Shown here piece by piece: positions 3,546 to 61,684 of a DNA stretch of 64,000 nucleotides. How positions within the stretch are numbered: position 1 is the first letter of the stretch; each line of letters opens with the position of its first letter. Source of the DNA: Sipunculus nudus (taxonomy: Eukaryota; Annelida; Sipuncula; Golfingiida; Sipunculidae); contig CM049319.1 in the NCBI GenBank assembly GCA_026874595.1, positions 39,563,473-39,627,472 of the forward strand. Direction: 5' to 3'. Made by a program: the position numbers and the translations under genes. The notes under the pieces are model-generated. The model ran no database searches, was not told where the DNA came from, and worked only from the letters and a program-made list of their open reading frames with translations.

Positions 3546-4456
3546 GGTTTGTTCTGTACACATGGCTCACATACCTTGGTTTGTTCTGTACATAAGGCTT
3601 ACATACCTTGGTTTGTTCGGTACACATGGCTTACATACCTTGATTTATTCTGTACACATGGCTCACATAAATTGGTTTGTTCTGTACATAAGGCTTACAT
3701 ACCTTGGTTTGTTCGGTACACATGGCTTACATACCTTGGTTTGTTCTGTATTCATGCCTCACATACCTTGGTTTGTTCTGTACACATGGCTCACATACCT
3801 TGGTTGGTTCTGTACACATGGCTTACATACCTTGGTTTGTTCTGTACACATGGCTTACATACCTTGGTTTGTTCTGTACACATGGCGTACATACCTTGGT
3901 TTGTTCTGTGCACATGGCTCACATACCTTGGTTTGTTCTGTACACATGGCTCACATACATTGGTTTGTTCGGTACACGTGGCTCACATACCTTGGTTTGT
4001 TCGGTACACATGGCTCACATACCTTGGTTTGTTCGGTACACATGGTTCACATACCTTGGTTTGTTCGGTACACATGGCTCACATACCTTGGTTTGTTCGG
4101 TAAACATGGCTTACATACCTTGGTTTGTTCTGTATGAAAGGCTTACATACTTTGGTTTGTTCTGTACACATGGCTTACATACCTTGGTTTGTTCTGTACA
4201 CATGGCTTACATACCTTGCTTTGATCGGTACACATGGCTCACATACCTTGGTTTGTTCTGTACACATGGCTCACATACCTCGGTTTGTTCTGTACATAAG
4301 GCTTACATACCTTGGTTTGTTCGGTACACTTGGCTTACATACCTTGATTTATTCTGTACACATGGCTCACATAAATTGGTTTGTTCTGTACATAAGGCTT
4401 ACATACCTTGGTTTGTTCTGTACACATGGCTTACATACCTTGGTTTGTTCGGTACA
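3546..4456 (+). repeat. Higher-order block Q, copy 1 (holds the long-repeat anchor)
   Basis: This stretch follows block P here and again at 23287-24197 and about 43348-44246, but not after the P copy ending at 11256. It contains the anchor GTATGAAAGG at 4132, which in this block is followed by CATACTTTGG instead of CATACCTTGG, and a GTGCACATGG variant near 3908. At 4457 it changes abruptly: this copy continues with a GTACACCTGG monomer where the later copies continue with ordinary monomers leading into block R. Confidence 0.8.
4132..4156 (+). other. Long-repeat anchor 1 (GTATGAAAGG then CATACTTTGG)
   Basis: Only four of the 22 anchors are followed by CATACTTTGG: this one and those at 23873, 43934 and 61660. 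The spacings are 19741, 20061 and 17726 bp, which defines the largest repeat period visible here. Confidence 0.9.
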
Positions 4457-5472
4457 CCTGGCTCACATACCTTGGTTTGTTATGTATACATGGCTCACAT
4501 ACCTTGGTTTGTTCGGTACACATGGCTTACATACCTTGGTTTGTTCTGTATACCTGGCTCATATACCTTGGTTTGTTCTGTACACATGGCTCACATACCT
4601 TGGTTTGTTCTGTATATAAGGCTTACATACCTTGGTTTGTTCGGTACACCTGGCTCACATACCTTGGTTTGTTATGTATACATGGCTCACATACCTTGCT
4701 TTGTTCTGTACACATGGCTTACATACCTTGGTTTGTTCTGTACACATGGCTTACATACCTTGGTTTGTTCTGTACACATGGCTTACATACCTTGGTTTGT
4801 TCTGTACACATGGCTTACATACCTTGGTTTGTTCTGTACACATGGCTTACATACCTTGGTTTGTTCTGTACACATGGCTCACATACCTTGGTTTGTTCTG
4901 AACACATGGCTCACATACCTTGGTTTGTTCGGTACACCTGGCTCACATACCTTGGTTTGTTCTGTACACATGGCTTACATACCTTGGTTTGTTCGGTACA
5001 CATGGCTTACATACCTAGGTTTGTTCGGTACACATGGCTTACATACCTTGGTTTCTTCTGTACACATGGCTCACATACCTTGGTTTGTTCTGTACACATG
5101 GCTCACATACCTTGGTTTGTTCGGTACACCTGGCTCACATACCTTGGTTTGTTCTGTACACATGGCTTACATACCTTGGTTTGTTCTGTACACATGGCTT
5201 ACATACCTTGGTTTGTTCTGTACACATGGCTTACATACCTTGGTTTGTTCGGTACACATGGCTTACATACCTTGGTTTGTTCTGTACACATGGTTTACAT
5301 ACCTTGCTTTGATCGGTACACATGGCTCACATACCTTGGTTTGTTCTGTACACATGGCTCACATACCTTGGTTTGTTCTGTACATAAGGCTTACATACCT
5401 TGGATTGTTCGGTACACATGGCTTACATACCTTGGTTTGTTCTGTACACATGGCTTACATACCTTGGTTTGT
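4457..5472 (+). repeat. Satellite segment matching 6996-7926
   Basis: From about 4500 to 5430 the variant order is the same as at 6996-7926 (shift 2496, exactly 78 monomers). Landmarks are GTATACCTGG near 4548, TTATGTATAC near 4672, CTGAACAC near 4898 and CCTAGGTTTG near 5015. The few monomers at 4457-4500 (an extra CCTGG and TTATGTATAC pair) do not fit that match and mark a junction where a block has been joined. Confidence 0.7.
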
Positions 5473-8400
5473 TCGGTACACATGGCTTACATACCTTGGT
5501 TTGTTCTGTACACATGGCTTACATACCTTGGTTTGTTCTGTACACATGGCTTACATACCTTGGTTTTTTCGGTACACATGGCTTACATACCTTGGTTTGT
5601 TCTGTACACATGGCTTACATACCTTGCTTTGATCGGTACACATGGCTCACATACCTTGGTTTGTTCTGTACACATGGCTCACATACCTTGGTTTGTTCTG
5701 TACATAAGGCTTACATACCTTGGTTTGTTCAGTACACATGGCTTACATACCTTGGTTTGTTCTGTACACATGGCTTACCTGCCTTGATTTGTTCTGTACA
5801 CATGGCTTACATACATTGGTTTGTTCTGTACACATGGTCTACATACCTTGGTTTGTTCTGTACACATGGCTTACATACTTTGGTTTGTTCGGTACACAGG
5901 GCTCACATACCTTGGTTTGTTCAGTATACATGGCTTACATACCTTGTTTTGATCGGTACACATGGCTCACATACCTTGGTTTGTTCTGTACACATGGCTT
6001 ACATACCTTGGTTTGTTCTGTACACATGGCTTACATACCTTGGTTTGTTCTGTACACATGGCGTACATACCTTGGTTTGTTCTGTACACATGGCTCACAT
6101 ACCTTGGTTTGTTCTGTACACATGGCTCACATACATTGGTTTGTTCGGTACACGTGGCTCACATACCTTGGTTTGTTCGGTACACATGGCTCACATACCT
6201 TGGTTTGTTCGGTACACATGGTTCACATACCTTGGTTTGTTCGGTACACATGGCTCACATACCTTGGTTTGTTCGATAAACATGGCTTACATACCTTGGT
6301 TTGTTCTGTATGAAAGGCTTACATACCTTGGTTTGTTCTGTACACATGGCTTACATACCTTGGTTTGTTCTGTACACATGGCTTACATACCTTGCTTTGA
6401 TCGGTACACATGGCTCACATACCTTGGTTTGTTCTGTACACATGGCTCACATACCTTGGTTTGTTCTGTACATAAGGCTTACATACCTTGGTTTGTTCGG
6501 TACACATGGCTTACATACCTTGATTTATTCTGTACACATGGCTCACATAAATTGGTTTGTTCTGTACATAAGGCTTACATACCTTGGTTTGTTCGGTACA
6601 CATGGCTTACATACCTTGGTTTGTTCTGTATTCATGGCTCACATACCTTGGTTTGTTCTGTACACATGGCTCACATACCTTGGTTGGTTCTGTACACATA
6701 GCTTACATACCTTGCTTTGACCGGTACACATGGCTCACATACCTTGGTTTATTCTGTACACATGGCTTACCTACCTTGGTTTGTTCTGTACACATGGCTA
6801 ACATACCTTGGTTTGTTCTGTATACATGGCTCACATACCTTGGTTTGTTCTGTACACATGGCTCACATACCTTGGTTTGTTCTGTACACATGGCTTACAT
6901 ACCTTGCTTTCATCGGTACACATGGCTCACATACCTTGGTTTGTTCTGTACACATGGCTCACATACCTTGGTTTGTTCTGTACATAAGGCTTACATACCT
7001 TGGTTTGTTCGGTACACATGGCTTACATACCTTGGTTTGTTCTGTATACCTGGCTCATATACCTTGGTTTGTTCTGTACACATGGCTCACATACCTTGGT
7101 TTGTTCTGTATATAAGGCTTACATACCTTGGTTTGTTCGGTACACCTGGCTCACATACCTTGGTTTGTTATGTATACATGGCTCACATACCTTGCTTTGT
7201 TCTGTACACATGGCTTACATACCTTGGTTTGTTCTGTACACATGGCTTACATACCTTGGTTTGTTCTGTACACATGGCTTACATACCTTGGTTTGTTCTG
7301 TACACATGGCTTACATACCTTGGTTTGTTCTGTACACATGGCTTACATACCTTGGTTTGTTCTGTACACATGGCTCACATACCTTGGTTTGTTCTGAACA
7401 CATGGCTCACATACCTTGGTTTGTTCGGTACACCTGGCTCACATACCTTGGTTTGTTCTGTACACATGGCTTACATACCTTGGTTTGTTCGGTACACATG
7501 GCTTACATACCTAGGTTTGTTCGGTACACATGGCTTACATACCTTGGTTTCTTCTGTACACATGGCTCACATACCTTGGTTTGTTCTGTACACATGGCTC
7601 ACATACCTTGGTTTGTTCGGTACACCTGGCTCACATACCTTGGTTTGTTCTGTACACATGGCTTACATACCTTGGTTTGTTCTGTACACATGGCTTACAT
7701 ACCTTGGTTTGTTCTGTACACATGGCTTACATACCTTGGTTTGTTCGGTACACATGGCTTACATACCTTGGTTTGTTCTGTACACATGGCTTACATACCT
7801 TGCTTTGATCGGTACACATGGCTCACATACCTTGGTTTGTTCTGTACACATGGCTCACATACCTTGGTTTGTTCTGTACATAAGGCTTACATACCTTGGA
7901 TTGTTCGGTACACATGGCTTACATACCTTGGTTTGTTCGGTACACATGGCTTACATACCTTGGTTTGTTCTGTACACATGGCTTACATACCTTGCTTTGA
8001 TCGGTACACATGGCTCACATACCTTGGTTTGTTCTGTACACATGGCTCACATACCTTGGTTTGTTCTGTACATAAGGCTTACATACCTTGGTTTGTTCGG
8101 TACACATGGCTTACATACCTTGATTTATTCTGTACACATGGCTCACATAAATTGGTTTGTTCTGTACATAAGGCTTACATACCTTGGTTTGTTCGGTACA
8201 CATGGCTTACATACCTTGGTTTGTTCTGTATTCATGCCTCACATACCTTGGTTTGTTCTGTACACATGGCTCACATACCTTGGTTGGTTCTGTACACATG
8301 GCTTACATACCTTGGTTTGTTCTGTACACATGGCTTACATACCTTGGTTTGTTCTGAACACATGGCTTATATACCTTGGTTTGTTCTGTACATATGGCTT

Positions 8401-8672
8401 ACATACCTTGGTTTGTTCTGTACACATGGCTCACATACCTTGGTTTGTTCTGTACACATGGCTCACATACCTTGGTTTGTTCTGTACACATGGCTCACAT
8501 ACCTTGGTTTGTTCTGTACACATGGCTTACATACCTTGGTTTGATCGGTACACATGGCTTACATACCTTGGTTTGTTCGGTACACCTGGCTCACATACCT
8601 TGGTTTGTTCTGTACAAATGGCTTACATACCTTGGTTTGTTCTGTACACATGGCTTACATACCTTGGTTTGT
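5473..8672 (+). repeat. 100-monomer tandem duplication, copy 1
   Basis: Landmarks recur exactly 3200 bp downstream: GTATGAAAGG at 6308 and 9508, TTCGATAAAC near 6275 and 9475, and CACATAGC near 6696 and 9896. The copies agree from about 5473 to 7930 (8673 to about 11130). They then differ by one whole monomer, and after about 11256 the second copy changes to unrelated variant order. The second copy also carries GCTTCATTACC and a one-base deletion that the first lacks. Confidence 0.8.
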
Positions 8673-11256
8673 TCTGTACACATGGCTTACATACCTTGGT
8701 TTGTTCTGTACACATGGCTTACATACCTTGGTTTGTTCTGTACACATGGCTTACATACCTTGGTTTTTTCGGTACACATGGCTTACATACCTTGGTTTGT
8801 TCTGTACACATGGCTTACATACCTTGCTTTGATCGGTACACATGGCTCACATACCTTGGTTTGTTCTGTACACATGGCTCACATACCTTGGTTTGTTCTG
8901 TACATAAGGCTTACATACCTTGGTTTGTTCAGTACACATGGCTTACATACCTTGGTTTGTTCTGTACACATGGCTTACCTGCCTTGATTTGTTCTGTACA
9001 CATGGCTTACATACATTGGTTTGTTCTGTACACATGGTCTACATACCTTGGTTTGTTCTGTACACATGGCTTACATACTTTGGTTTGTTCGGTACACAGG
9101 GCTCACATACCTTGGTTTGTTCAGTATACATGGCTTACATACCTTGTTTTGATCGGTACACATGGCTCACATACCTTGGTTTGTTCTGTACACATGGCTT
9201 ACATACCTTGGTTTGTTCTGTACACATGGCTTACATACCTTGGTTTGTTCTGTACACATGGCGTACATACCTTGGTTTGTTCTGTACACATGGCTCACAT
9301 ACCTTGGTTTGTTCTGTACACATGGCTCACATACATTGGTTTGTTCGGTACACGTGGCTCACATACCTTGGTTTGTTCGGTACACATGGCTCACATACCT
9401 TGGTTTGTTCGGTACACATGGTTCACATACCTTGGTTTGTTCGGTACACATGGCTCACATACCTTGGTTTGTTCGATAAACATGGCTTACATACCTTGGT
9501 TTGTTCTGTATGAAAGGCTTACATACCTTGGTTTGTTCTGTACACATGGCTTACATACCTTGGTTTGTTCTGTACACATGGCTTACATACCTTGCTTTGA
9601 TCGGTACACATGGCTCACATACCTTGGTTTGTTCTGTACACATGGCTCACATACCTTGGTTTGTTCTGTACATAAGGCTTACATACCTTGGTTTGTTCGG
9701 TACACATGGCTTACATACCTTGATTTATTCTGTACACATGGCTCACATAAATTGGTTTGTTCTGTACATAAGGCTTACATACCTTGGTTTGTTCGGTACA
9801 CATGGCTTACATACCTTGGTTTGTTCTGTATTCATGGCTCACATACCTTGGTTTGTTCTGTACACATGGCTCACATACCTTGGTTGGTTCTGTACACATA
9901 GCTTACATACCTTGCTTTGACCGGTACACATGGCTCACATACCTTGGTTTATTCTGTACACATGGCTTACCTACCTTGGTTTGTTCTGTACACATGGCTA
10001 ACATACCTTGGTTTGTTCTGTATACATGGCTCACATACCTTGGTTTGTTCTGTACACATGGCTCACATACCTTGGTTTGTTCTGTACACATGGCTTACAT
10101 ACCTTGCTTTCATCGGTACACATGGCTCACATACCTTGGTTTGTTCTGTACACATGGCTCACATACCTTGGTTTGTTCTGTACATAAGGCTTACATACCT
10201 TGGTTTGTTCGGTACACATGGCTTACATACCTTGGTTTGTTCTGTATACCTGGCTCATATACCTTGGTTTGTTCTGTACACATGGCTCACATACCTTGGT
10301 TTGTTCTGTATATAAGGCTTCATTACCTTGGTTTGTTCGGTACACCTGGCTCACATACCTTGGTTTGTTATGTATACATGGCTCACATACTTGCTTTGTT
10401 CTGTACACATGGCTTACATACCTTGGTTTGTTCTGTACACATGGCTTACATACCTTGGTTTGTTCTGTACACATGGCTTACATACCTTGGTTTGTTCTGT
10501 ACACATGGCTTACATACCTTGGTTTGTTCTGTACACATGGCTTACATACCTTGGTTTGTTCTGTACACATGGCTCACATACCTTGGTTTGTTCTGAACAC
10601 ATGGCTCACATACCTTGGTTTGTTCGGTACACCTGGCTCACATACCTTGGTTTGTTCTGTACACATGGCTTACATACCTTGGTTTGTTCGGTACACATGG
10701 CTTACATACCTAGGTTTGTTCGGTACACATGGCTTACATACCTTGGTTTCTTCTGTACACATGGCTCACATACCTTGGTTTGTTCTGTACACATGGCTCA
10801 CATACCTTGGTTTGTTCGGTACACCTGGCTCACATACCTTGGTTTGTTCTGTACACATGGCTTACATACCTTGGTTTGTTCTGTACACATGGCTTACATA
10901 CCTTGGTTTGTTCTGTACACATGGCTTACATACCTTGGTTTGTTCGGTACACATGGCTTACATACCTTGGTTTGTTCTGTACACATGGCTTACATACCTT
11001 GCTTTGATCGGTACACATGGCTCACATACCTTGGTTTGTTCTGTACACATGGCTCACATACCTTGGTTTGTTCTGTACATAAGGCTTACATACCTTGGAT
11101 TGTTCGGTACACATGGCTTACATACCTTGGTTTGTTCTGTACACATGGCTTACATACCTTGGTTTGTTCGGTACACATGGCTTACATACCTTGGTTTGTT
11201 CTGTACACATGGCTTACATACCTTGCTTTGATCGGTACACATGGCTCACATACCTT
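8673..11256 (+). repeat. 100-monomer tandem duplication, copy 2 (also block P, copy 2)
   Basis: This is the downstream partner of 5473-8672 and forms most of the P copy at 7712-11256. It carries the linked pair of private changes seen only in P copies: GCTTCATTACC near 10318 and the one-base deletion after 10390. The sequence switches at about 11257, where a GTTCACATGG monomer replaces the expected one. Confidence 0.8.
10390..10391 (+). other. One-base deletion, class a (copy 2)
   Basis: Identical change to that at 2679, 7711 bp downstream, with the same linked GCTTCATTACC. Confidence 0.95.
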
Positions 11257-12764
11257 GGTTTGTTCTGTTCACATGGCTTACATACATTGGTTTGTTCTGT
11301 ACACATGGTCTACATACCTTGGTTTGTTCTGTACACATGGCTTACATACTTTGGTTTGTTCGGTACACAGGGCACACATACCTTGGTTTGTTCTGTATAC
11401 ATGGCTTACATACCTTGCTTTGATCGGTACACATGGCTCACATACCTTGGTTTGTTCTGTACACATGGCTAACAAACCTTGGTTTGTTCTGTACACATGG
11501 CTTACATACCTTGATTTGTTCAGTACACATGGCTTACATACCTTGGTTTGTTCTGTACACATGGCTTACCTGCCTTGGTTTGTTCTGTACACATGGCTTA
11601 CATACATTGGTTTGTTCTGTACACATGGTCTACATACCTTGGTTTCTTCTGTACACATGGCTTACATACTTTGGTTTGTTCGGTACACAGGGCTCACATA
11701 CCTTGGTTTGTTCTGTATACATGGCTTACATACCTTGTTTTGATCGGTACACATGGCTCACATACCTTGGTTTGTTCTGTACACATGGCTTACATACCTT
11801 GGTTTGTTCTGTACACATGGCTTACATACCTTGGTTTGTTCTGTACACATGGCGTACATACCTTGGTTTGTTCTGTACACATGGCTCACATACCTTGGTT
11901 TGTTCTGTACACATGGCTCACATACATTGGTTTGTTCGGTACACGTGGCTCACATACCTTGGTTTGTTCGGTACACATGGCTCACATACCTTGGTTTGTT
12001 CGGTACACATGGTTCACATACCTTGGTTTGTTCGGTACACATGGCTCACATACCTTGGTTTGTTCGGTAAACATGGCTTACATACCTTGGATTGTTCTGT
12101 ATGAAAGGCTTACATACCTTGGTTTGTTCTGTACACATGGCTTACATACCTTGGTTTGTTCTGTACACATGGCTTACATACCTTGCTTTGATCGGTACAC
12201 ATGGCTCACATACCTTGGTTTGTTCTGTACACATGGCTCACATACCTTGGTTTGTTCTGTACATAAGGCTTACATACCTTGGTTTGTTCGGTACACATGG
12301 CTTACATACCTTGATTTATTCTGTACACATGGCTCACATAAATTGGTTTGTTCTGTACATAAGGCTTACATACCTTGGTTTGTTCGGTACACATGGCTTA
12401 CATACCTTGGTTTGTTCTGTATTCATGGCTCACATACCTTGGTTTGTTCTGTACACATGGCTCACATACCTTGGTTGGTTCTGTACACATAGCTTACATA
12501 CCTTGCTTTGACCGGTACACATGGCTCACATACCTTGGTTTATTCTGTACACATGGCTTACCTACCTTGGTTTGTTCTGTACACATGGCTAACATACCTT
12601 GGTTTGTTCTGTATACATGGCTCACATACCTTGGTTTGTTCTGTACACATGGCTCACATACCTTGGTTTGTTCTGTACACATGGCTTACATACCTTGCTT
12701 TCATCGGTACACATGGCTCACATACCTTGGTTTGTTCTGTACACATGGCTTACATACCTTGGTT
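11257..12764 (+). repeat. Satellite segment with a local 10-monomer duplication
   Basis: A run of five variant monomers (CATACATTGG, then ATGGTCTAC, CATACTTTGG, CACAGGG, and GTATACATGG) occurs at about 11265-11424 and again 320 bp later at about 11585-11744. The copies have separated slightly: the first has GGGCACAC where the second has GGGCTCAC, and the second has a TTTCTTCTG. A GCTAACAAACC monomer near 11468 is rare. The rest, including the anchor at 12099, is the ordinary block core. Confidence 0.7.
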
Positions 12765-22419: not shown

Positions 22420-22421
22420 CT
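22420..22421 (+). other. One-base deletion, class a (copy 3)
   Basis: Identical change, 12030 bp after copy 2. The matching position in the third long repeat, near 42480, still has the full-length CATACCTTGC. Confidence 0.95.
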
Positions 22422-44725: not shown

Positions 44726-44729
44726 TTTT
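44726..44729 (+). other. One-base insertion, class c (copy 2)
   Basis: Same T insertion in R copy 2, 64 bp (two monomers) closer to its upstream anchor than in R copy 1. Confidence 0.95.
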
Positions 44730-46310
44730 GTTCTGAACACATGACTTACATACCTTGGTTTGTTCGGTACACATGGCTTACATACCTTGGTTTGTTATGT
44801 ACACATGGCTTACATACCTTGCTTTACTCGGTACACATGGCTCACATACCTAGGTTTGTTCTACACACATGGCTCACATACCTTGATTTGTTCTGTACAT
44901 AAGGCTTACATACCTTGGTTTGTTCAGTACACATGGCTTACATACCTTGGTTTGTTCTGTACACATGGCTTACATACCTTGGTTTGTTCTGTATACATGG
45001 CTCACATACCTTGGTTTGTTCTGTACACATGGCTCACATACCTTGGTTTGTTCTGTATATAAGGCTTACATACCTTGGTTTGTTCGGTACATCTGGCTCA
45101 CATACCTTGGTTTGTTATGTATACATGGCTCACATACCTTGGTTTGTTCTGTACACATGGCTTACATACCTTGGTTTGTTCTGTACACATGGCTTACATA
45201 CCTTGGTTTGATCGGTACACATAGCTTACATACCTTGGTTTGTTCTGTACATAAGGCTCACATACCTTGGTTTGTTCTGTACACATGGCTCACATACCTT
45301 CGTTTGTTCTGTACACATGGCTCACATACCTTGGTTTGTTCGGTACACAGGGCTCACATACCTTGGTTTGTTCTGTACACATGGCTTACATACCTTGGTT
45401 TGTTCTGTACACATGGCTTACATACCTTGGTTTGTTCGGTACACATGGCTTAAATACCTTGGTTTGTTCTGTACACATGGCTTACGTACCTTGGTTTGTT
45501 CTGTACACATGGCTTACATACCTTGGTTTGTTCTGTACACATGGCTTATATACCTTGGTTTGTTCTGTACACATGGCTTACATACCTTGGTTTGTTCGGT
45601 ACACATGGCTTACATACCTTGGTTTGTTCTGTACACATGGCTTACATACCTTGGTTAGTTCGGGACACATGGCTTACATGCCTTGGTTTGTTCTGTACAC
45701 ATGGCTTACATACCTTGCTTTGATCGGTACACATGGCTCACATACCTTGGTTTGTTCTGTACACATGGCTCACATACCTTGGTTTGTTCTGTACATAAGG
45801 CTTACATACCTTGGATTGTTCGGTATACATGGCTTACATACCTTGGTTTGTTCTGTACACATGGCTTACATACCTTGGTTTGTTCGGTACACATGGCTTA
45901 CATACCTTGGTTTGTTCTGTACACATGGCTTACATACCTTGCTTTACTCGGTACACATGGCTCACATACCTAGGTTTGTTCTGTACACATGGCTCACATA
46001 CCTTGGTTTGTTCGGTACACATGGCTTACATACCTTGGTTTGTTCTGTACACATGGCTTACATACCTTGGTTTGACCGGTACACATGGCTTACATACCTT
46101 GGTTTGTTCTGTACATAAGGCTCACATACCTTGGTTTGTTCTGTACACATGGCTCACATACCTTGGTTTGTTCTGTACACATGGCTCACATACCTTGGTT
46201 TGTTCGGTACACAGGGCTCACATACCTTGGTTTGTTCTGTACACATGGCTTACGTACCTTGGTTTGTTCTGTACACATGGCTTACATACCTTGGTTTGTT
46301 CTGTACACAT

Positions 46311-49300
46311 GGCTTACATACCTTGGTTTGTTCTGTACACATGGCTTACATACCTTGGTTTGTTCTGTACACATGGCTTACATACCTTGGTTTGTTTTGT
46401 ACACATGGCTTACATACCTTGGTTTGTTCGGTACACATGGCTTACATACCTTGGTTTGTTCGGTACACATGGCTTACATACCTTGGTTTATTCTATATAC
46501 ATGGCTTACATACCTTGGTTTGTTCTGTACACATGGCTTACATACCTTGGTTTGTTCTGTACACATGGCTTACATACCTTGGTTTGTTCGGTACACATGG
46601 CTTACATACCTTGGTTTGTTCTGTACACATGGCTTACATACCTTGCTTTGATCGGTACACATGGCTCACATACCTTGGTTTGTTCTGTACACATGGCTCA
46701 CATACCTTGGTTTGTTCTGTACATAAGGCTTACATACCTTGGATTGTTCGGTATACATGGCTTACATACCTTTGTTTGTTCTGTACACATGGTCTACATA
46801 CCTTGGTTTGTTCTGTACACATGGCTTACATACTTTGGTTTGTTCGGTACACAGGGCTCACATACCTTGGTTTGTTCTGTATACATGGCTTACATACCTT
46901 GTTTTGATCGGTACACATGGCTCACATACCTTGGTTTGTTCTGTACACATGGCTTACATACCTTGGTTTGTTCTGTACACATGGCTTACATACCTTGCTT
47001 TGTTCTGTACACATGGCGTACATACCTTGGTTTGTTCTGTACACATGGCTCACATACCTTGGTTTGTTCTGTACACATGGCTCACATACCTTGGTTTGTT
47101 ATGTACATAAGGCTTACATACCTTGGTTTGTTCGGTACACATGGCTTACATACCTTGGTTTGTTCTGTATACATGGCTCACATACCTTGGTTTGTTCTGT
47201 ACACATGGCTCACATACCTTGGTTTGTTCTGTATATAAGGCTTACATACCTTGGTTTGTTCGGTACATCTGGCTCACATACCTTGGTTTGTTATGTATAC
47301 ATGGCTCACATACCTTGGTTTGTTCTGTACACATGGCTTACATACCTTGGTTTGTTCTGTACACATGGCTTACATACCTTGGTTTGATCGGTACACATGG
47401 CTTACATACCTTGGTTTGTTCTGGACATAAGGCTCACATACCTTGGTTTGTTCTGTACACATGGCTCACATACCTTGGTTTGTTCTGTACACAGGGCTCA
47501 CACACCTTGGTTTGTTCGGTACACAGGGCTCACATACCTTGGTTTGTTCTGTACACATGGCTTACATACCTTGGTTTGTTCTGTACACATGGCTTACATA
47601 CCTTGGTTTGTTCGGTACACATGGCTTAAATACCTTGGTTTGTTCTGTACACATGGCTTACGTACCTTGGTTTGTTCTGTACACATGGCTTACATACCTT
47701 GGTTTGTTCTGTACACATGGCTTACATACCTTGGTTTGTTCTGTACACATGGCTTACATACCTTGGTTTGTTCGGTACACATGGCTTACATACCTTGGTT
47801 TGTTCGGTACACATGGCTTACATACCTTGGTTTATTCTATATACATGGCTTACATACCTTGGTTTGTTCTGTACACATGGCTTACATACCTTGGTTTGTT
47901 CTGTAACATGGCTTACATACCTTGGTTTGTTCGGTACACATGGCTTACATACCTTGGTTTGTTCTGTACACATGGCTTACATACCTTGCTTTGATCGGTA
48001 CACATGGCTCACATACCTTGGTTTGTTCTGTACACATGGCTCACATACCTTGGTTTGTTCTGTACATAAGGCTTACATACCTTGGATTGTTCGGTATACA
48101 TGGCTTACATACCTTGGTTTGTTCTGTACACATGGCTTACATACCTTGGTTTGTTCGGTACACATGGCTTACATACCTTGGTTTGTTCTGTACACATGGC
48201 TTACATACCTTGCTTTACTCGGTACACATGGCTCACATACCTAGGTTTGTTCTGTACACATGGCTCACATACCTTGGTTTGTTCTGTACATAAGGCTTAC
48301 ATACCTTGGTTTGTTCAGTACACATGGCTTACATACCTTGGTTTGTTCTGTACACATGGCTTACCTGCCTTGGTTTGTTCTGCACACATGGCTTACATAC
48401 ATTGGTTTGTTCTGTACACATGGTCTACATACCTTGGTTTGTTCTGTACACATGGCTTACATACTTTGGTTTGTTCGGTACACAGGGCTCACATACCTTG
48501 GTCTGTTCTGTATACATGGCTTACATACCTTGTTTTGATCGGTACACATGGCTCACATACCTTGGTTTGTTCTGTACACATGGCTTACATACCTTGGTTT
48601 GTTCTGTACACATGGCTTACATACCTTGGTTTGTTCTGTACACATGGCTTACATACCTTGGTTTGTTCTGTACACATGGCTCACATACCTTGGTTTGTTC
48701 TGTACACATGGCTCACATACATTGGTTTGTTCGGTACACGTGGCTCACATACCTTGGTTTGTTCGGTACACATGGCTCACATACCTTGGTTTGTTCGGTA
48801 CACATGGTTCACATACCTTGGTTTGTTCGGTACACATGGCTCACATACCTTGGTTTGTTCGGTAAACATGGCTTACATACCTTGGTTTCTTCTGTATGAA
48901 AGGCTTACATACCTTGGTTTGTTCTGTACACATGGCTTACATACCTTGGTTTGTTCTGTACACATGGCTTACATACCTTGCTTTGATCGGTACACATGGC
49001 TCACATACCTTGGTTTGTTCTGTACACATGGCTCACATACCTTGGTTTGTTCTGTACATAAGGCTTACATACCTTGGTTTGTTCGGTACACATGGCTTAC
49101 ATACCTTGATTTATTCTGTACACATGGCTCACATAAATTGGTTTGTTCTGTACATAAGGCTTACATACCTTGGTTTGTTCGGTACACATGGCTTACATAC
49201 CTTGGTTTGTTCTGTATTCATGGCTCACATACCTTGGTTTGTTCTGTACACATGGCTCACATACCTTGGTTGGTTCTGTACACATAGCTTACATACCTTG

Positions 49301-50021
49301 CTTTGACCGGTACACATGGCTCACATACCTTGGTTTATTCTGTACACATGGCTTACCTACCTTGGTTTGTTCTGTACACATGGCTAACATACCTTGGTTT
49401 GTTCTGTATAAATGGCTCACATACCTTGGTTTGTTCTGTACACATGGCTCACATACCTTGGTTTGTTCTGTACACATGGCTTACATACCTTGCTTTCATC
49501 GGTACACATGGCTCACATACCTTTGTTTGTTCTGTACACATGGCTCACATACCTTGGTTTGTTCTGTACATAAGGCTTACATACCTTGGTTTGTTCGGTA
49601 CACATGGCTTACATACCTTGGTTTGTTCTGTATACCTGGCTCATATACCTTGGTTTGTTCTGTACACATGGCTCACATACCTTGGTTTGTTCTGTATATA
49701 AGGCTTACATACCTTGGTTTGTTCGGTACACCTGGCTAACATACCTTGGTTTGTTATGTATACATGGCTCACATACCTTGCTTTGTTCTGTACACATGGC
49801 TTACATACCTTGGTTTGTTCTGTACACATGGCTTACATACATTGGTTTGTTCTGTACACATGGCTTACATACCTTGGTTTGTTCTGTACACATGGCTTAC
49901 ATACCTTGGTTTGTTCTGTACACATGGCTTACATACCTTGGTTTGTTCTGTACACATGGCTCACATACCTAGGTTTGTTCGGTACACATGGCTTACATAC
50001 ATTGGTTTCTTCTGTACACAT
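46311..50021 (+). repeat. 115-monomer tandem duplication, copy 1
   Basis: Landmarks recur 3679 bp downstream (115 monomers minus the deletion after 47905): anchors at 48894 and 52573, and the deletions after 47905 and 51584. The first monomers are 3711 bp from their partners (TTTTG at 46395 and 50106) because this copy has one more monomer before the CTTTGATCGG unit near 46647. The anchor here is preceded by TTTCTTCTG, a private change. Confidence 0.8.
47905..47906 (+). other. One-base deletion, class e (copy 2)
   Basis: Same CTGTAACATGG monomer in R copy 2, 19838 bp after copy 1. Confidence 0.95.
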
Positions 50022-53000
50022 GGCTCACATACCTTGGTTTGTTCTGTACACATGGCTTACATACCTTGGTTTGTTCTGTACACATGGCTTACATACCTTG
50101 GTTTGTTTTGTACACATGGCTTACATACCTTGGTTTGTTCGGTACACATGGCTTACATACCTTGGTTTGTTCGGTACACATGGCTTACATACCTTGGTTT
50201 ATTCTATATACATGGCTTACATACCTTGGTTTGTTCTGTACACATGGCTTACATACCTTGGTTTGTTCGGTACACATGGCTTACATACCTTGGTTTGTTC
50301 TGTACACATGGCTTACATACCTTGCTTTGATCGGTACACATGGCTCACATACCTTGGTTTGTTCTGTACACATGGCTCACATACCTTGGTTTGTTCTGTA
50401 CATAAGGCTTACATACCTTGGATTGTTCGGTATACATGGCTTACATACCTTTGTTTGTTCTGTACACATGGTCTACATACCTTGGTTTGTTCTGTACACA
50501 TGGCTTACATACTTTGGTTTGTTCGGTACACAGGGCTCACATACCTTGGTTTGTTCTGTATACATGGCTTACATACCTTGTTTTGATCGGTACACATGGC
50601 TCACATACCTTGGTTTGTTCTGTACACATGGCTTACATACCTTGGTTTGTTCTGTACACATGGCTTACATACCTTGCTTTGTTCTGTACACATGGCGTAC
50701 ATACCTTGGTTTGTTCTGTACACATGGCTCACATACCTTGGTTTGTTCTGTACACATGGCTCACATACCTTGGTTTGTTATGTACATAAGGCTTACATAC
50801 CTTGGTTTGTTCGGTACACATGGCTTACATACCTTGGTTTGTTCTGTATACATGGCTCACATACCTTGGTTTGTTCTGTACACATGGCTCACATACCTTG
50901 GTTTGTTCTGTATATAAGGCTTACATACCTTGGTTTGTTCGGTACATCTGGCTCACATACCTTGGTTTGTTATGTATACATGGCTCACATACCTTGGTTT
51001 GTTCTGTACACATGGCTTACATACCTTGGTTTGTTCTGTACACATGGCTTACATACCTTGGTTTGATCGGTACACATGGCTTACATACCTTGGTTTGTTC
51101 TGGACATAAGGCTCACATACCTTGGTTTGTTCTGTACACATGGCTCACATACCTTGGTTTGTTCTGTACACAGGGCTCACACACCTTGGTTTGTTCGGTA
51201 CACAGGGCTCACATACCTTGGTTTGTTCTGTACACATGGCTTACATACCTTGGTTTGTTCTGTACACATGGCTTACATACCTTGGTTTGTTCGGTACACA
51301 TGGCTTAAATACCTTGGTTTGTTCTGTACACATGGCTTACGTACCTTGGTTTGTTCTGTACACATGGCTTACATACCTTGGTTTGTTCTGTACACATGGC
51401 TTACATACCTTGGTTTGTTCTGTACACATGGCTTACATACCTTGGTTTGTTCGGTACACATGGCTTACATACCTTGGTTTGTTCGGTACACATGGCTTAC
51501 ATACCTTGGTTTATTCTATATACATGGCTTACATACCTTGGTTTGTTCTGTACACATGGCTTACATACCTTGGTTTGTTCTCTAACATGGCTTACATACC
51601 TTGGTTTGTTCGGTACACATGGCTTACATACCTTGGTTTGTTCTGTACACATGGCTTACATACCTTGCTTTGATCGGTACACATGGCTCACATACCTTGG
51701 TTTGTTCTGTACACATGGCTCACATACCTTGGTTTGTTCTGTACATAAGGCTTACATACCTTGGATTGTTCGGTATACATGGCTTACATACCTTGGTTTG
51801 TTCTGTACACATGGCTTACATACCTTGGTTTGTTCGGTACACATGGCTTACATACCTTGGTTTGTTCTGTACACATGGCTTACATACCTTGCTTTACTCG
51901 GTACACATGGCTCACATACCTAGGTTTGTTCTGTACACATGGCTCACATACCTTGGTTTGTTCTGTACATAAGGCTTACATACCTTGGTTTGTTCAGTAC
52001 ACATGGCTTACATACCTTGGTTTGTTCTGTACACATGGCTTACCTGCCTTGGTTTGTTCTGCACACATGGCTTACATACATTGGTTTGTTCTGTACACAT
52101 GGTCTACATACCTTGGTTTGTTCTGTACACATGGCTTACATACTTTGGTTTGTTCGGTACACAGGGCTCACATACCTTGGTCTGTTCTGTATACATGGCT
52201 TACATACCTTGTTTTGATCGGTACACATGGCTCACATACCTTGGTTTGTTCTGTACACATGGCTTACATACCTTGGTTTGTTCTGTACACATGGCTTACA
52301 TACCTTGGTTTGTTCTGTACACATGGCTTACATACCTTGGTTTGTTCTGTACACATGGCTCACATACCTTGGTTTGTTCTGTACACATGGCTCACATACA
52401 TTGGTTTGTTCGGTACACGTGGCTCACATACCTTGGTTTGTTCGGTACACATGGCTCACATACCTTGGTTTGTTCGGTACACATGGTTCACATACCTTGG
52501 TTTGTTCGGTACACATGGCTCACATACCTTGGTTTGTTCGGTAAACATGGCTTACATACCTTGGTTTGTTCTGTATGAAAGGCTTACATACCTTGGTTTG
52601 TTCTGTACACATGGCTTACATACCTTGGTTTGTTCTGTACACATGGCTTACATACCTTGCTTTGATCGGTACACATGGCTCACATACCTTGGTTTGTTCT
52701 GTACACATGGCTCACATACCTTGGTTTGTTCTGTACATAAGGCTTACATACCTTGGTTTGTTCGGTACACATGGCTTACATACCTTGATTTATTCTGTAC
52801 ACATGGCTCACATAAATTGGTTTGTTCTGTACATAAGGCTTACATACCTTGGTTTGTTCGGTACACATGGCTTACATACCTTGGTTTGTTCTGTATTCAT
52901 GGCTCACATACCTTGGTTTGTTCTGTACACATGGCTCACATACCTTGGTTGGTTCTGTACACATAGCTTACATACCTTGCTTTGACCGGTACACATGGCT

Positions 53001-53700
53001 CACATACCTTGGTTTATTCTGTACACATGGCTTACCTACCTTGGTTTGTTCTGTACACATGGCTAACATACCTTGGTTTGTTCTGTATAAATGGCTCACA
53101 TACCTTGGTTTGTTCTGTACACATGGCTCACATACCTTGGTTTGTTCTGTACACATGGCTTACATACCTTGCTTTCATCGGTACACATGGCTCACATACC
53201 TTTGTTTGTTCTGTACACATGGCTCACATACCTTGGTTTGTTCTGTACATAAGGCTTACATACCTTGGTTTGTTCGGTACACATGGCTTACATACCTTGG
53301 TTTGTTCTGTATACCTGGCTCATATACCTTGGTTTGTTCTGTACACATGGCTCACATACCTTGGTTTGTTCTGTATATAAGGCTTACATACCTTGGTTTG
53401 TTCGGTACACCTGGCTAACATACCTTGGTTTGTTATGTATACATGGCTCACATACCTTGCTTTGTTCTGTACACATGGCTTACATACCTTGGTTTGTTCT
53501 GTACACATGGCTTACATACATTGGTTTGTTCTGTACACATGGCTTACATACCTTGGTTTGTTCTGTACACATGGCTTACATACCTTGGTTTGTTCTGTAC
53601 ACATGGCTTACATACCTTGGTTTGTTCTGTACACATGGCTCACATACCTAGGTTTGTTCGGTACACATGGCTGACATACATTGGTTTCTTCTGTACACAT
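50022..53700 (+). repeat. 115-monomer tandem duplication, copy 2
   Basis: This is the downstream partner of 46311-50021, one monomer shorter. Its deletion monomer at 51584 has acquired CTCTAACATGG in place of CTGTAACATGG. The right part also forms the first copy of the 122-monomer duplication, so the two events overlap. Confidence 0.8.
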
Positions 53701-55287
53701 GGCTCACATACCTTGGTTTGTTCTGTACACATGGCTTACATACCTTGGTTTGTTCTGTACACATGGCTTACATACCTTGGTTTGTTTTGTACACATGGCT
53801 TACATACCTTGGTTTGTTCGGTACACATGGCTTACATACCTTGGTTTGTTCGGTACACATGGCTTACATACCTTGGTTTATTCTATATACATGGCTTACA
53901 TACCTTGGTTTGTTCTGTACACATGGCTTACATACCTTGGTTTGTTCTGTACACATGGCTTACATACCTTGGTTTGTTCGGTACACATGGCTTACATACC
54001 TTGGTTTGTTCTGTACACATGGCTTACATACCTTGGTTTGTTCTGTATAAATGGCTCACATACCTTGGTTTGTTCTGTACACATGGCTCACATACCTTGG
54101 TTTGTTCTGTACACATGGCTTACATACCTTGCTTTCATCGGTACACATGGCTCACATACCTTTGTTTGTTCTGTACACATGGCTCACATACCTTGGTTTG
54201 TTCTGTACATAAGGCTTACATACCTTGGTTTGTTCGGTACACATGGCTTACATACCTTGATTTATTCTGTACACATGGCTCACATAAATTGGTTTGTTCG
54301 GTACACATGGCTTACATACCTTGGTTTGTTCTGTATTCATGGCTCACATACCTTGGTTTGTTCTGTACACATGGCTCACATACCTTGGTTGGTTCTGTAC
54401 ACATAGCTTACATACCTTGCTTTGACCGGTACACATGGCTCACATACCTTGGTTTATTCTGTACACATGGCTTACCTACCTTGGTTTGTTCTGTACACAT
54501 GGCTAACATACCTTGGTTTGTTCTGTATAAATGGCTCACATACCTTGGTTTGTTCTGTACACATGGCTCACATACCTTGGTTTGTTCTGTACACATGGCT
54601 TACATACCTTGCTTTCATCGGTACACATGGCTCACATACCTTTGTTTGTTCTGTACACATGGCTCACATACCTTGGTTTGTTCTGTACATAAGGCTTACA
54701 TACCTTGGTTTGTTCGGTACACATGGCTTACATACCTTGGTTTGTTCTGTATACCTGGCTCATATACCTTGGTTTGTTCTGTACACATGGCTCACATACC
54801 TTGGTTTGTTCTGTATATAAGGCTTACATACCTTGGTTTGTTCGGTACACCTGGCTAACATACCTTGGTTTGTTATGTATACATGGCTCACATACCTTGC
54901 TTTGTTCTGTACACATGGCTTACATACCTTGGTTTGTTCTGTACACATGGCTTACATACATTGGTTTGTTCTGTACACATGGCTTACATACCTTGGTTTG
55001 TTCTGTACACATGGCTTACATACCTTGGTTTGTTCTGTACACATGGCTTACATACCTTGGTTTGTTCTGTACACATGGCTCACATACCTAGGTTTGTTCG
55101 GTACACATGGCTTACATACATTGGTTTCTTCTGTACACATGGCTCACATACCTTGGTTTGTTCTGTACACATGGCTTACATACCTTGGTTTGTTCTGTAC
55201 ACATGGCTTACATACCTTGGTTTGTTTTGTACACATGGCTTACATACCTTGGTTTGTTCGGTACACATGGCTTACATACCTTGGTTT
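51390..55287 (+). repeat. 122-monomer tandem duplication, copy 1
   Basis: Landmarks recur 3903 bp downstream (122 monomers minus one base): deletions after 51584 and 55487, anchors at 52573 and 56476, and TTTTG at 53785 and 57688. A shorter repeat is nested inside: about 1.02 kb at 52850-53870 and again at 54290-55310, 1440 bp (45 monomers) apart. A private GGCTGACATACATTGG occurs near 53669. Confidence 0.78.
51584..51585 (+). other. One-base deletion, class e (copy 3)
   Basis: Same deletion, 3679 bp after copy 2, with one later substitution (CTCTAACATGG). Confidence 0.95.
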
Positions 55288-58200
55288 GTTCGGTACACAT
55301 GGCTTACATACCTTGGTTTGTTCTGTACACATGGCTTACATACCTTGGTTTGTTCGGTACACATGGCTTACATACCTTGGTTTGTTCGGTACACATGGCT
55401 TACATACCTTGGTTTATTCTATATACATGGCTTACATACCTTGGTTTGTTCTGTACACATGGCTTACATACCTTGGTTTGTTCTGTAACATGGCTTACAT
55501 ACCTTGGTTTGTTCGGTACACATGGCTTACATACCTTGGTTTGTTCTGTACACATGGCTTACATACCTTGCTTTGATCGGTACACATGGCTCACATACCT
55601 TGGTTTGTTCTGTACACATGGCTCACATACCTTGGTTTGTTCTGTACATAAGGCTTACATACCTTGGATTGTTCGGTATACATGGCTTACATACCTTGGT
55701 TTGTTCTGTACACATGGCTTACATACCTTGGTTTGTTCGGTACACATGGCTTACATACCTTGGTTTGTTCTGTACACATGGCTTACATACCTTGCTTTAC
55801 TCGGTACACATGGCTCACATACCTAGGTTTGTTCTGTACACATGGCTCACATACCTTGGTTTGTTCTGTACATAAGGCTTACATACCTTGGTTTGTTCAG
55901 TACACATGGCTTACATACCTTGGTTTGTTCTGTACACATGGCTTACCTGCCTTGGTTTGTTCTGCACACATGGCTTACATACATTGGTTTGTTCTGTACA
56001 CATGGTCTACATACCTTGGTTTGTTCTGTACACATGGCTTACATACTTTGGTTTGTTCGGTACACAGGGCTCACATACCTTGGTCTGTTCTGTATACATG
56101 GCTTACATACCTTGTTTTGATCGGTACACATGGCTCACATACCTTGGTTTGTTCTGTACACATGGCTTACATACCTTGGTTTGTTCTGTACACATGGCTT
56201 ACATACCTTGGTTTGTTCTGTACACATGGCTTACATACCTTGGTTTGTTCTGTACACATGGCTCACATACCTTGGTTTGTTCTGTACACATGGCTCACAT
56301 ACATTGGTTTGTTCGGTACACGTGGCTCACATACCTTGATTTGTTCGGTACACATGGCTCACATACCTTGGTTTGTTCGGTACACATGGTTCACATACCT
56401 TGGTTTGTTCGGTACACATGGCTCACATACCTTGGTTTGTTCGGTAAACATGGCTTACATACCTTGGTTTGTTCTGTATGAAAGGCTTACATACCTTGGT
56501 TTGTTCTGTACACATGGCTTACATACCTTGGTTTGTTCTGTACACATGGCTTACATACCTTGCTTTGATCGGTACACATGGCTCACATACCTTGGTTTGT
56601 TCTGTACACATGGCTCACATACCTTGGTTTGTTCTGTACATAAGGCTTACATACCTTGGTTTGTTCGGTACACATGGCTTACATACCTTGATTTATTCTG
56701 TACACATGGCTCACATAAATTGGTTTGTTCTGTACATAAGGCTTACATACCTTGGTTTGTTCGGTACACATGGCTTACATACCTTGGTTTGTTCTGTATT
56801 CATGGCTCACATACCTTGGTTTGTTCTGTACACATGGCTCACATACCTTGGTTGGTTCTGTACACATAGCTTACATACCTTGCTTTGACCGGTACACATG
56901 GCTCACATACCTTGGTTTATTCTGTACACATGGCTTACCTACCTTGGTTTGTTCTGTACACATGGCTAACATACCTTGGTTTGTTCTGTATAAATGGCTC
57001 ACATACCTTGGTTTGTTCTGTACACATGGCTCACATACCTTGGTTTGTTCTGTACACATGGCTTACATACCTTGCTTTCATCGGTACACATGGCTCACAT
57101 ACCTTTGTTTGTTCTGTACACATGGCTCACATACCTTGGTTTGTTCTGTACATAAGGCTTACATACCTTGGTTTGTTCGGTACACATGGCTTACATACCT
57201 TGGTTTGTTCTGTATACCTGGCTCATATACCTTGGTTTGTTCTGTACACATGGCTCACATACCTTGGTTTGTTCTGTATATAAGGCTTACATACCTTGGT
57301 TTGTTCGGTACACCTGGCTAACATACCTTGGTTTGTTATGTATACATGGCTCACATACCTTGCTTTGTTCTGTACACATGGCTTACATACCTTGGTTTGT
57401 TCTGTACACATGGCTTACATACATTGGTTTGTTCTGTACACATGGCTTACATACCTTGGTTTGTTCTGTACACATGGCTTACATACCTTGGTTTGTTCTG
57501 TACACATGGCTTACATACCTTGGTTTGTTCTGTACACATGGCTCACATACCTAGGTTTGTTCGGTACACATGGCTTACATACATTGGTTTCTTCTGTACA
57601 CATGGCTCACATACCTTGGTTTGTTCTGTACACATGGCTTACATACCTTGGTTTGTTCTGTACACATGGCTTACATACCTTGGTTTGTTTTGTACACATG
57701 GCTTACATACCTTGGTTTGTTCGGTACACATGGCTTACATACCTTGGTTTGTTCGGTACACATGGCTTACATACCTTGGTTTATTCTATATACATGGCTT
57801 ACATACCTTGGTTTGTTCTGTACACATGGCTTACATACCTTGGTTTGTTCTGTACACATGGCTTACATACCTTGGTTTGTTCGGTACACATGGCTTACAT
57901 ACCTTGGTTTGTTCTGTACACATGGCTTACATACCTTGGTTTGTTCTGTATAAATGGCTCACATACCTTGGTTTGTTCTGTACACATGGCTCACATACCT
58001 TGGTTTGTTCTGTACACATGGCTTACATACCTTGCTTTCATCGGTACACATGGCTCACATACCTTTGTTTGTTCTGTACACATGGCTCACATACCTTGGT
58101 TTGTTCTGTACATAAGGCTTACATACCTTGGTTTGTTCGGTACACATGGCTTACATACCTTGATTTATTCTGTACACATGGCTCACATAAATTGGTTTGT

Positions 58201-59200
58201 TCGGTACACATGGCTTACATACCTTGGTTTGTTCTGTATTCATGGCTCACATACCTTGGTTTGTTCTGTACACATGGCTCACATACCTTGGTTGGTTCTG
58301 TACACATAGCTTACATACCTTGCTTTGACCGGTACACATGGCTCACATACCTTGGTTTATTCTGTACACATGGCTTACCTACCTTGGTTTGTTCTGTACA
58401 CATGGCTAACATACCTTGGTTTGTTCTGTATAAATGGCTCACATACCTTGGTTTGTTCTGTACACATGGCTCACATACCTTGGTTTGTTCTGTACACATG
58501 GCTTACATACCTTGCTTTCATCGGTACACATGGCTCACATACCTTTGTTTGTTCTGTACACATGGCTCACATACCTTGGTTTGTTCTGTACATAAGGCTT
58601 ACATACCTTGGTTTGTTCGGTACACATGGCTTACATACCTTGGTTTGTTCTGTATACCTGGCTCATATACCTTGGTTTGTTCTGTACACATGGCTCACAT
58701 ACCTTGGTTTGTTCTGTATATAAGGCTTACATACCTTGGTGTGTTCGGTACACCTGGCTAACATACCTTGGTTTGTTATGTATACATGGCTCACATACCT
58801 TGGTTTGTTCTGTACACATGGCTTACATACCTTGGTTTGTTCTGTACACATGGCTTACATACATTGGTTTGTTCTGTACACATGGCTTACATACCTTGGT
58901 TTGTTCTGTACACATGGCTTACATACCTTGGTTTGTTCTGTACACATGGCTTACATACCTTGGTTTGTTCTGTACACATGGCTCACATACCTAGGTTTGT
59001 TCGGTACACATGGCTTACATACATTGGTTTCTTCTGTACACATGGCTCACATACCTTGGTTTGTTCTGTACACATGGCTTACATACCTTGGTTTGTTCTG
59101 TACACATGGCTTACATACCTTGGTTTGTTTTGTACACATGGCTTACATACCTTGGTTTGTTCGGTACACATGGCTTACATACCTTGGTTTGTTCGGTACA
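55288..59200 (+). repeat. 122-monomer tandem duplication, copy 2
   Basis: This is the downstream partner of 51390-55287. The nested 45-monomer repeat was copied with it: TTTTG at 57688 and 59128 and CACATAGC near 56864 and 58304 are each 1440 bp apart. The inner duplication therefore came first and the outer one second. CTTGGTGTG near 58736 is a private change. Confidence 0.78.
55487..55488 (+). other. One-base deletion, class e (copy 4)
   Basis: Same CTGTAACATGG monomer, 3903 bp after copy 3 but without the CTCT change. The substitution at 51584 therefore arose after the 122-monomer duplication, or was reverted by exchange. Confidence 0.95.
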
Positions 59201-60690
59201 CATGGCTTACATACCTTGGTTTATTCTATATACATGGCTTACATACCTTGGTTTGTTCTGTACACATGGCTTACATACCTTGGTTTGTTCTGTACACATG
59301 GCTTACATACCTTGGTTTGTTCGGTACACATGGCTTACATACCTTGGTTTGTTCTGTACACATGGCTTACATACCTTGCTTTGATCGGTACACATGGCTC
59401 ACATACCTTGGTTTGTTCTGTACACATGGCTCACATACCTTGGTTTTTTCTGTACATAAGGCTTACATACCTTGGATTGTTCGGTATACATGGCTTACAT
59501 ACCTTTGTTTGTTCTGTACATATGGCTTACATACCTTGGTTTGTTCGCTACACATGGCTTACATACCTTGGTTTGTTCTGTACACATGGCTTACATACCT
59601 TGCTTTACTCGGTACACATGGCTCACATACCTAGGTTTGTTCTGTACACATGGCTCACATACCTTGGTTTGTTCTGTACATAAGGCTTACATACCTTGGT
59701 TTGTTCAGTACACATGGCTTACATACCTTGGTTTGTTCTGTACACATGGCTTACCTGCCTTGGTTTGTTCTGTACACATGGCTTACATACATTGGTTTGT
59801 TCTGTACACATGGTCTACATACCTTGGTTTGTTCTGTACACATGGCTTACATACTTTGGTTTGTTCGGTACACAGGGCTCACATACCTTGGTTTGTTCTG
59901 TATACATGGCTTACATACCTTGTTTTGATCGGTACACATGGCTCACATACCTTGGTTTGTTCTGTACACATGGCTTACATACCTTGGTTTGTTCTGTACA
60001 CATGGCTTACATACCTTGGTTTGTTCTGTACACATGGCTTACATACCTTGGTTTGTTCTGTACACATGGCTCACATACCTTGGTTTGTTCTGTACACATG
60101 GCTCACATACATTGGTTTGTTCGGTACACGTGGCTCACATACCTTGGTTTGTTCGGTACACATGGCTCACATACCTTGGTTTGTTCGGTACACATGGTTC
60201 ACATACCTTGGTTTGTTCGGTACACATGGCTCACATACCTTGGTTTGTTCGGTAAACATGGCTTACATACCTTGGTTTGTTCTGTATGAAAGGCTTACAT
60301 ACCTTGGTTTGTTCTGTACACATGGCTTACATACCTTGGTTTGTTCTGTACACATGGCTTACATACCTTGCTTTGATCGGTACACATGGCTCACATACCT
60401 TGGTTTGTTCTGTACACATGGCTCACATACCTTGGTTTGTTCTGTACATAAGGCTTACATACCTTGGTTTGTTCGGTACACATGGCTTACATACCTTGAT
60501 TTATTCTGTACACATGGCTCACATAAATTGGTTTGTTCTGTACATAAGGCTTACATACCTTGGTTTCTTCGGTACACATGGCTTACATACCTTGGTTTGT
60601 TCTGTATTCATGGCTCACATACCTTGGTTTGTTCTGTACACATGGCTCACATACCTTGGTTGGTTCTGTACACATAGCTTACATACCTTG
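59201..60690 (+). repeat. Block core after the nested duplications
   Basis: This core carries the anchor at 60284, 3808 bp (119 monomers) after the one at 56476. Private changes are TTTTTTCTG near 59443, TTCGCTACAC near 59544 and TTTCTTCGG near 60564. It continues the same variant order as 48260-49480 and 51939-53160. Confidence 0.7.
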
Positions 60691-61660
60691 CTTTGACCGG
60701 TACACATGGCTCACATACCTTGGTTTATTCTGTACACATGGCTTACCTACCTTGGTTTGTTCTGTACACATGGCTCACATACCTTGGTTTGTTCTGTACA
60801 TAAGGCTTACATACCTTGGTTTGTTCGGTACACATGGCTTACATACCTTGGTTTGTTCTGTATACCTGGCTCATATACCTTGGTTTGTTCTTTACACATG
60901 GCTCACATACCTTGGTTTGTTCTGTACATAAGGCTTACATACCTTGGATTGTTCGGTACACATGGCTTACATACCTTGGTTTGTTCGGTACACATGGCTT
61001 ACATACCTTGGTTTGTTCTGTACACATGGCTTACATACCTTGCTTTACTCGGTACACATGGCTCACATACCTAGGTTTGTTCTGTACACATGGCTCACAT
61101 ACCTTGGTTTGTTCTGTACATAAGGCTTACATACCTTGGTTTGTTCAGTACACATGGCTTACATACCTTGGTTTGTTCTGTACACATGGCTTACCTGCCT
61201 TGGTTTGTTCTGTACACATGGCTTACATACATTGGTTTGTTCTGTACACATGGTCTACATACCTTGGTTTGTTCTGTACACATGGCTTAAATACTTTGGT
61301 TTGTTCGGTACACAGGGCTCACATACAATGGTTTGTTCTGTATACATGGCTCACATACCTTGTTTTGATCGGTACACATGGCTCACATACCTTGGTTTGT
61401 TCTGTACACATGGCTTACATACCTTGGTTTGTTCTGTACACATGGCTTACATACCTTGGTTTGTTCTGTACACATGGCTCACATACATTGGTTTGTTCGG
61501 TACACGTGGCTCACATACCTTGGTTTGTTCGGTACACATGGCTCACATACCTTGGTTTGTTCGGTACACATGGTTCACATACCTTGGTTTGTTCGGTACA
61601 CATGGCTCACATACCTTGGTTTGTTCGGTAAACATGGCTTACATACCTTGGTTTGTTCTG
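60691..61660 (+). repeat. Shortest higher-order block (43 monomers between anchors)
   Basis: Only 1376 bp separate the anchors at 60284 and 61660, against 68 to 162 monomers elsewhere apart from the 52-monomer unit. Compared with its relatives it lacks many monomers after GGCTTACCTACC near 60740: the GCTAAC, GTATACATGG and CTTTCATCGG monomers are absent. CATACAATGG near 61323 and CTTTACACATGG near 60890 are private. This is the best candidate in the window for a large internal loss. Confidence 0.7.
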
Positions 61661-61684
61661 TATGAAAGGCTTACATACTTTGGT
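61660..61684 (+). other. Long-repeat anchor 4
   Basis: Same anchor type, 17726 bp after the third and again followed by block R. The shorter interval goes with the different set of tandem duplications between 46 and 60 kb. Confidence 0.9.

Follow-up and report, generated by a model that had tools for sequence, protein, structure and literature searches.

A local ~20-kb repeat in a 32-bp satellite array of Sipunculus nudus and its probable origin in ordinary repeat-array growth

The stretch of DNA analyzed here, hereafter the window, covers 64 kb of the 1.43-Gb Sipunculus nudus assembly (C14:39563473-39627472) and consists wholly of a single tandem repeat whose monomer is 32 bp long (window 1-64000, + strand; consensus TTCTGTACACATGGCTTACATACCTTGGTTTG). 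Reading into both flanks revealed that the window is the middle third of a complete array at C14:39497850-39688573 (window coordinates -65622 to 125101), which is gap-free, lies on a single strand, and holds about 5,962 monomers in 190.7 kb. Neighboring monomer copies match at 91% of positions with a period of 32, while monomers drawn at random from the array are 8.7% divergent. Head-to-tail monomers on one strand over tens of kilobases or more place the array among satellite DNAs or giant minisatellites. Split into 5,963 monomer segments, the full array contains only 280 monomer types; in the window we distinguished 142 types. Types that occur once (n = 106) are concentrated toward the ends, with 42 among the first 600 monomers and 38 among the last ~360, but few mid-array. 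Indels inside monomers are rare and small across the full array: of 58 events (47 deletions and 11 insertions), just two exceed 1 bp, and both are deletions of 8 bp. This means that the joins between copies stay in the 32-bp register, and it argues for homology-guided events over end joining.

The array lies roughly in the middle of its chromosome, at 39.5 of 68.3 Mb, and gives way to non-satellite sequence at both ends. To the left lies an old dispersed repeat with 28 matches, most of them ~70-76% identical; no second match to the right flank was found in the assembly, and neither flank matched Rfam. Three exact monomer variants, from which we judged the presence of the satellite elsewhere in the genome, are all confined to this array and were found on no other contig. 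Many other small minisatellites surround the array, and no 32-bp minisatellite from a mollusc turned up in the literature searched. Matches to COX1 in the assembly fell on bacterial contigs, a GTDB scan reached 58% identity at most, and a mollusc haemocyanin model, run with no positive control, had no match. Frames on the + strand reach 1,105 amino acids; we considered and rejected a coding function, as the 32-mer consensus is stop-free on the + strand in any phase and so explains them, and the frames have irregular ends and mostly TTG starts.

The original prediction was that a repeat of about 18-20 kb lies above the ordinary higher-order level, and it was drawn from the recurrence of a rare anchor in the window. 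The anchor, GTATGAAAGG-CTTA-CATACTTTGG within one monomer, does occur exactly at window positions 4132, 23873, 43934, and 61660 and nowhere else in the window, and it is absent from shuffled sequence. Its two motifs occur singly 22 and 26 times in the window and come together in just these four monomers. In the whole assembly there are nine anchors, all inside this array, at -55.6, -16.6, 4.1, 23.9, 43.9, 61.7, 94.1, 107.4, and 114.8 kb in window coordinates. Copies three to six of the nine are the + strand monomers (TTCTGTATGAAAGGCTTACATACTTTGGTTTG) at 4128-4159, 23869-23900, 43930-43961, and 61656-61687, and the copies to the right of the window lie 32.4, 45.7, and 53.1 kb beyond copy six. 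From left to right, the spacings are thus 39.0, 20.8, 19.7, 20.1, 17.7, 32.4, 13.3, and 7.4 kb. The ~20-kb series therefore runs for four intervals in succession and is then broken: the recurrence at about 20 kb expected in the flanks is found once on the left (20.8 kb), before the leftmost spacing, which is about twice 19.5 kb, and is lost on the right.

The agreement in monomer order reported around these anchors is genuine and in many places exact to the letter. Between 1-4456 and 19742-24197, positions 1-3487 equal 19742-23228 (109 monomers) and 3520-4447 equal 23261-24188 (29 monomers), both at a shift of 19,741 bp. The agreement placed at ~20.3-30 kb and 40.4-49.8 kb is a match of 20,446-30,011 to 40,506-49,721, along which the shift moves from 20,060 through 19,838/19,870 to 19,710. 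Comparison of whole anchor-to-anchor units gave a more uneven picture. Between successive units, 85% (U1-U2), 67% (U2-U3), and 63% (U3-U4) of monomers agree, compared to 51% ± 9% (SD; 95th percentile 70%) for random 20-kb pairs within the array, a control that is conservative in that it takes in pairs at strong shifts. Of the successive units, only U1-U2 clearly exceeds random 20-kb pairs.

Order above the level of 2-5 kb units is nonetheless real. The longest exact run of monomers in the window is 180, compared to at most six after monomer shuffling, and 382 monomers are chained at shifts of at least 15 kb, compared to a mean of 157 and a maximum of 299 when blocks of 2-5 kb were shuffled (0 of 20 shuffles reached the observed value). 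These block shuffles rule out chance, or carry-over from the 2-5 kb units, as the source of the long order. The best partners of 40-monomer windows fall at discrete shifts of 2-7, 12, 17, 19, 28, 31-32, 37, and 40 kb, with 5.4% of windows at 17 kb, 9.8% at 19 kb, 12.2% at 28 kb, 15.3% at 31-32 kb, and about 17% at 2-4 kb. Such a spectrum, together with the anchor positions over the whole array, rules out a fixed ~20-kb period. Two parts of the original prediction stand, namely that the array is ordered beyond the 2-5 kb level and that about five consecutive units measure 17.5-20.8 kb; a constant period does not. The ~20-kb repeat is thus a quasi-period confined to about five units in the mid-left of the array, with no fixed unit.

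The copies that produce this order are nested and vary widely in size. The 109-monomer block at 1-3487 (+ strand, as are all copies described here) has, besides its exact copy at 19742-23228, a further exact copy at 7712-11198, at a shift of 7,711, which had gone unremarked. The longest exact repeat wholly in the window is a 180-monomer block at 5504-11262 that is identical to 17534-23292, at a shift of 12,030. Since the 1-3487 block is found again at 7712 and at 19742, the 19,741-bp shift breaks down into 7,711 and 12,030, and larger shifts are additive in the same manner (17,567 + 19,741 = 37,308; 37,308 + 20,316 = 57,624). A longer unit block at 14527-30779 matches 34843-50425 at shifts of 20,316 to 19,646; the two are separated by several indels of whole monomers, and their bases are 0.16% divergent where aligned. 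Units also adjoin their own copies directly: 37050-42937 comprises two identical copies of a 92-monomer (2,944-bp) unit, 46555-53912 two copies of a 115-monomer (3,679-bp) unit with 97% identical monomers, and 51386-59191 two copies of a 122-monomer (3,903-bp) unit with 95% identical monomers. At the right edge, the window portion 61784-64000 belongs to the first of two identical adjoining 121-monomer (3,873-bp) units (61784-65656 and 65657-69529). Adjoining tandem units in the array contain 14, 22, 32, 34, 44, 52, 67, 89, 92, 100, 115, 121, 122, 139, or 208 monomers. The longest tandem duplication is larger still, with a unit of 31,799 bp (994 monomers) at 46811-78609; the first half of this unit lies in the window (46811-64000), and its tandem copy starts outside, at 78610. 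The two are 0.05% divergent across long aligned parts, and 89423-107175 (17,753 bp) is letter-for-letter 56984-78609 minus one 3,873-bp unit. The array thus has higher-order repeat structure, with most adjacent units differing by 0-0.5%, compared to 8.7% between random monomers. Across the aligned parts of large copies, divergence is 0-0.2%, again far below the value for random monomers, so duplication has been rapid compared to base change.

A second array offers a local comparison. A 29-bp minisatellite of 28.6 kb (C14:39381500-39410053) lies 88 kb to the left of the 32-bp array and, like it, contains nested copies at many shifts, though at a smaller scale: exact copies reach 1,445 bp, and those of at least 500 bp lie at shifts of 1.2-9.7 kb. 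It differs in having an unrelated monomer, more divergence, a strong period of five to seven monomers (146/175/204 bp), and a longest exact copy of 1.4 kb. Nested copying is therefore not peculiar to the 32-bp monomer.

We consider it very probable, at roughly 0.87, that this is a single-locus array built by repeated in-register tandem duplication and loss, in which the ~20-kb repeat reflects a few events of 17.5-20.8 kb in a row. Stretches of the array as short as 14 and as long as about 1,000 monomers would duplicate in tandem, and some would later be lost; a few successive duplications of 17.5-20.8 kb would leave the ~20-kb repeat, and later gains and losses of 1-8 kb would alter its copies. 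As assembled, the array displays units within units, copies that adjoin perfectly, shifts that add up, joins in register, almost no divergence between large copies, and private variants concentrated at the edges. Copies that adjoin in register and private variants at the edges are what an array driven by unequal exchange should contain. Two processes may underlie this growth: unequal exchange, with sister chromatids or homologues as the partners, and break-induced replication that re-enters out of register. Both fit the array, both lead to the same kind of sequence here, and reviewed models of the two (PMC8997354, PMC8122249) match it in mechanism and predictions. No unit-specific function is needed to explain the array.

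We simulated random duplication and deletion with events of up to 1,000 monomers, a size range picked so as to cover the sizes seen in the array. A marker acquired four or more regular spacings of at least 10 kb in 7-9% of these runs and three or more in 24-32%; when events were capped at 300 monomers, the corresponding values were 0% and 1.3%. We conclude that large duplications did take place in register and that they need not have had a preferred length of 20 kb. Counting against the duplication-and-loss explanation are the choice of size range and the fact that the random model makes a set of four near-equal spacings moderately unusual (7-9%). A physically preferred duplication length of ~18-20 kb, set for instance by replicon, loop, or break-repair tract length and going beyond the luck of random events, would account for these spacings; we consider such a length quite unlikely, although a weak preference may exist.

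A true super-higher-order repeat, in which a ~20-kb unit of about 620 monomers was amplified and homogenized as a unit, would likewise produce the consecutive anchor spacings of 20.77, 19.74, 20.06, and 17.73 kb, and it finds further support in other rare monomers that follow the series (for example, at -16.86, 3.90, 23.64, and 43.71 kb) and in the 85% of monomers common to U1 and U2. However, this reading already loses ground in the right half of the array. Beyond about five units the spacing becomes 32.4, 13.3, 7.4, and 39.0 kb, shifts of 28-32 kb explain more of the array than shifts of 19-20 kb, and unit length varies by phase within the same copies (17,567 versus 20,766), because smaller units were gained or lost inside them. 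No one length is kept throughout, as it would be in a regular Willard-type higher-order repeat (HOR) with a ~20-kb unit. Monomer types are repeated within units, as in superHORs or cascading HORs, but those arrays also contain many near-identical copies, and here there are at most about five irregular ones, so the array does not belong to that class overall. Homogenization of a ~20-kb unit is thus quite improbable.

Alternatively, long exact repeats could have arisen during assembly, either created outright or copied wrongly. Those of 17,753 bp (after removal of one unit), 12,953 bp, and 8,673 bp have lengths that could confuse long-read assemblers, and the most recent exact copies, read as they are from the assembled sequence, could reflect assembly. 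Against this, substitutions (0.03-0.2%) are scattered through most large copies, which also have whole-monomer indels of their own, the array is gap-free with ordinary sequence at both ends, and the three searched variants are on no other contig. The nearby 29-bp array, moreover, is alike at 0.5-1.5 kb, a size normally spanned by single long reads. We regard an artifact as very unlikely. A centromere or other selected chromosomal element, whose long unit would have a role of its own, might be suggested by a large single-chromosome satellite at a roughly mid-chromosomal position. The array, however, has no regular unit, occupies only 0.19 Mb of a 68-Mb chromosome, adjoins non-array sequence and many small minisatellites, and has searched variants that are missing from all other contigs, making such a role extremely improbable. 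Repeated in-register duplication and loss at one locus remains the reading that we favor.

Comparison with known systems places this process in context. Units of hundreds of monomers were originally taken to be far beyond classic ones, a claim that was too strong: human HSat3 DYZ1 on Yq has a 3.6-kb unit of pentanucleotides (PMC4022460), which by our own arithmetic is about 700 monomers. DYZ1 resembles the 32-bp array in combining a short monomer with a higher-order unit that is very long in monomer count, but its unit is regular over many megabases, whereas the unit length here is not constant. Among primate alpha satellites, the orangutan has a 58mer HOR with canonical copies 0.25% divergent and an 84mer on chromosome 5 (PMC12428378). 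Like our array, primate alpha satellite HORs, including cascading HORs and superHORs, carry diverged monomers in large near-identical copies and reuse monomer types within the unit (PMC12428378). They differ in having 171-bp monomers and a single regular unit present in tens to hundreds of copies, in contrast to about five irregular ~20-kb units amid a mixture of unit sizes and 32-bp monomers at one 0.19-Mb locus. The array also resembles Smith-type unequal crossover and layered centromere array models (PMC8122249, PMC8997354), which share with it nested duplications, in-register joins, a younger and more uniform center, and a greater number of private variants at the edges; these models are general, and the sequence in this case is compatible with either exchange or break-induced replication. 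Higher-order units of hundreds of monomers are therefore already known, and it is the irregular mixture of unit sizes that sets the 32-bp array apart.

In sum, the ~20-kb repeat exists, but only locally, and is accounted for by the ordinary growth of a repeat array. Reading a short window alone can give the impression of a ‘super-repeat’ that the full array does not keep. Because the array is gap-free and its monomer variants are readable, the order and sizes of its self-duplications can be reconstructed, and single events as large as ~32 kb (994 monomers) can be made out, after which hardly any bases have changed. For one more genome, this makes the size spectrum of satellite turnover concrete.

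Only two monomers of the array, at C14:39633066 and C14:39661632 (C14 being contig CM049319.1), are 24 bp long, each carrying an 8-bp deletion, and they are separated by 28,566 bp. The deletion is therefore older than the large duplication and can be used as a time marker. Two 1,105-aa open frames (+ strand, window 6584-9901 and 18614-21931) are copies of each other at a shift of 12,030. Because the + strand of the 32-bp consensus is without stops in every phase, long frames are expected in the array; these two are probably not coding.

The eukaryote assembly additionally includes bacterial contigs (C60, C61, C62, C66, C72, C74, C75, C89 and C123), eight of which carry CoxA genes closely similar to one another, and C123 carries a ccoN cluster. 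Among the GTDB representatives recovered, none shares more than 58% identity with these CoxA sequences, which points to a bacterial lineage that has been poorly sampled, present either as a symbiont or as a contaminant.

Minisatellites with 22-44 bp units are abundant in the array's neighbourhood on C14 (39370000-39419999, 39440000-39449999 and 39483473-39493472), among them a 29-bp array of 28.6 kb and 977 copies, with periods of 146, 175 and 204 bp. Close to the array edge, the right flank (sequence piece L014, 5517-9760, - strand) bears integrase remnants from a retroelement (Pfam rve, E 1.8e-07, slightly below the curated cut-off), together with reverse-transcriptase-like frames. On the left, an old dispersed repeat adjoins the array start (C14:39497450-39497686), with 28 copies on many chromosomes, mostly at ~70-76% identity, and this repeat could be related to the site where the array began.
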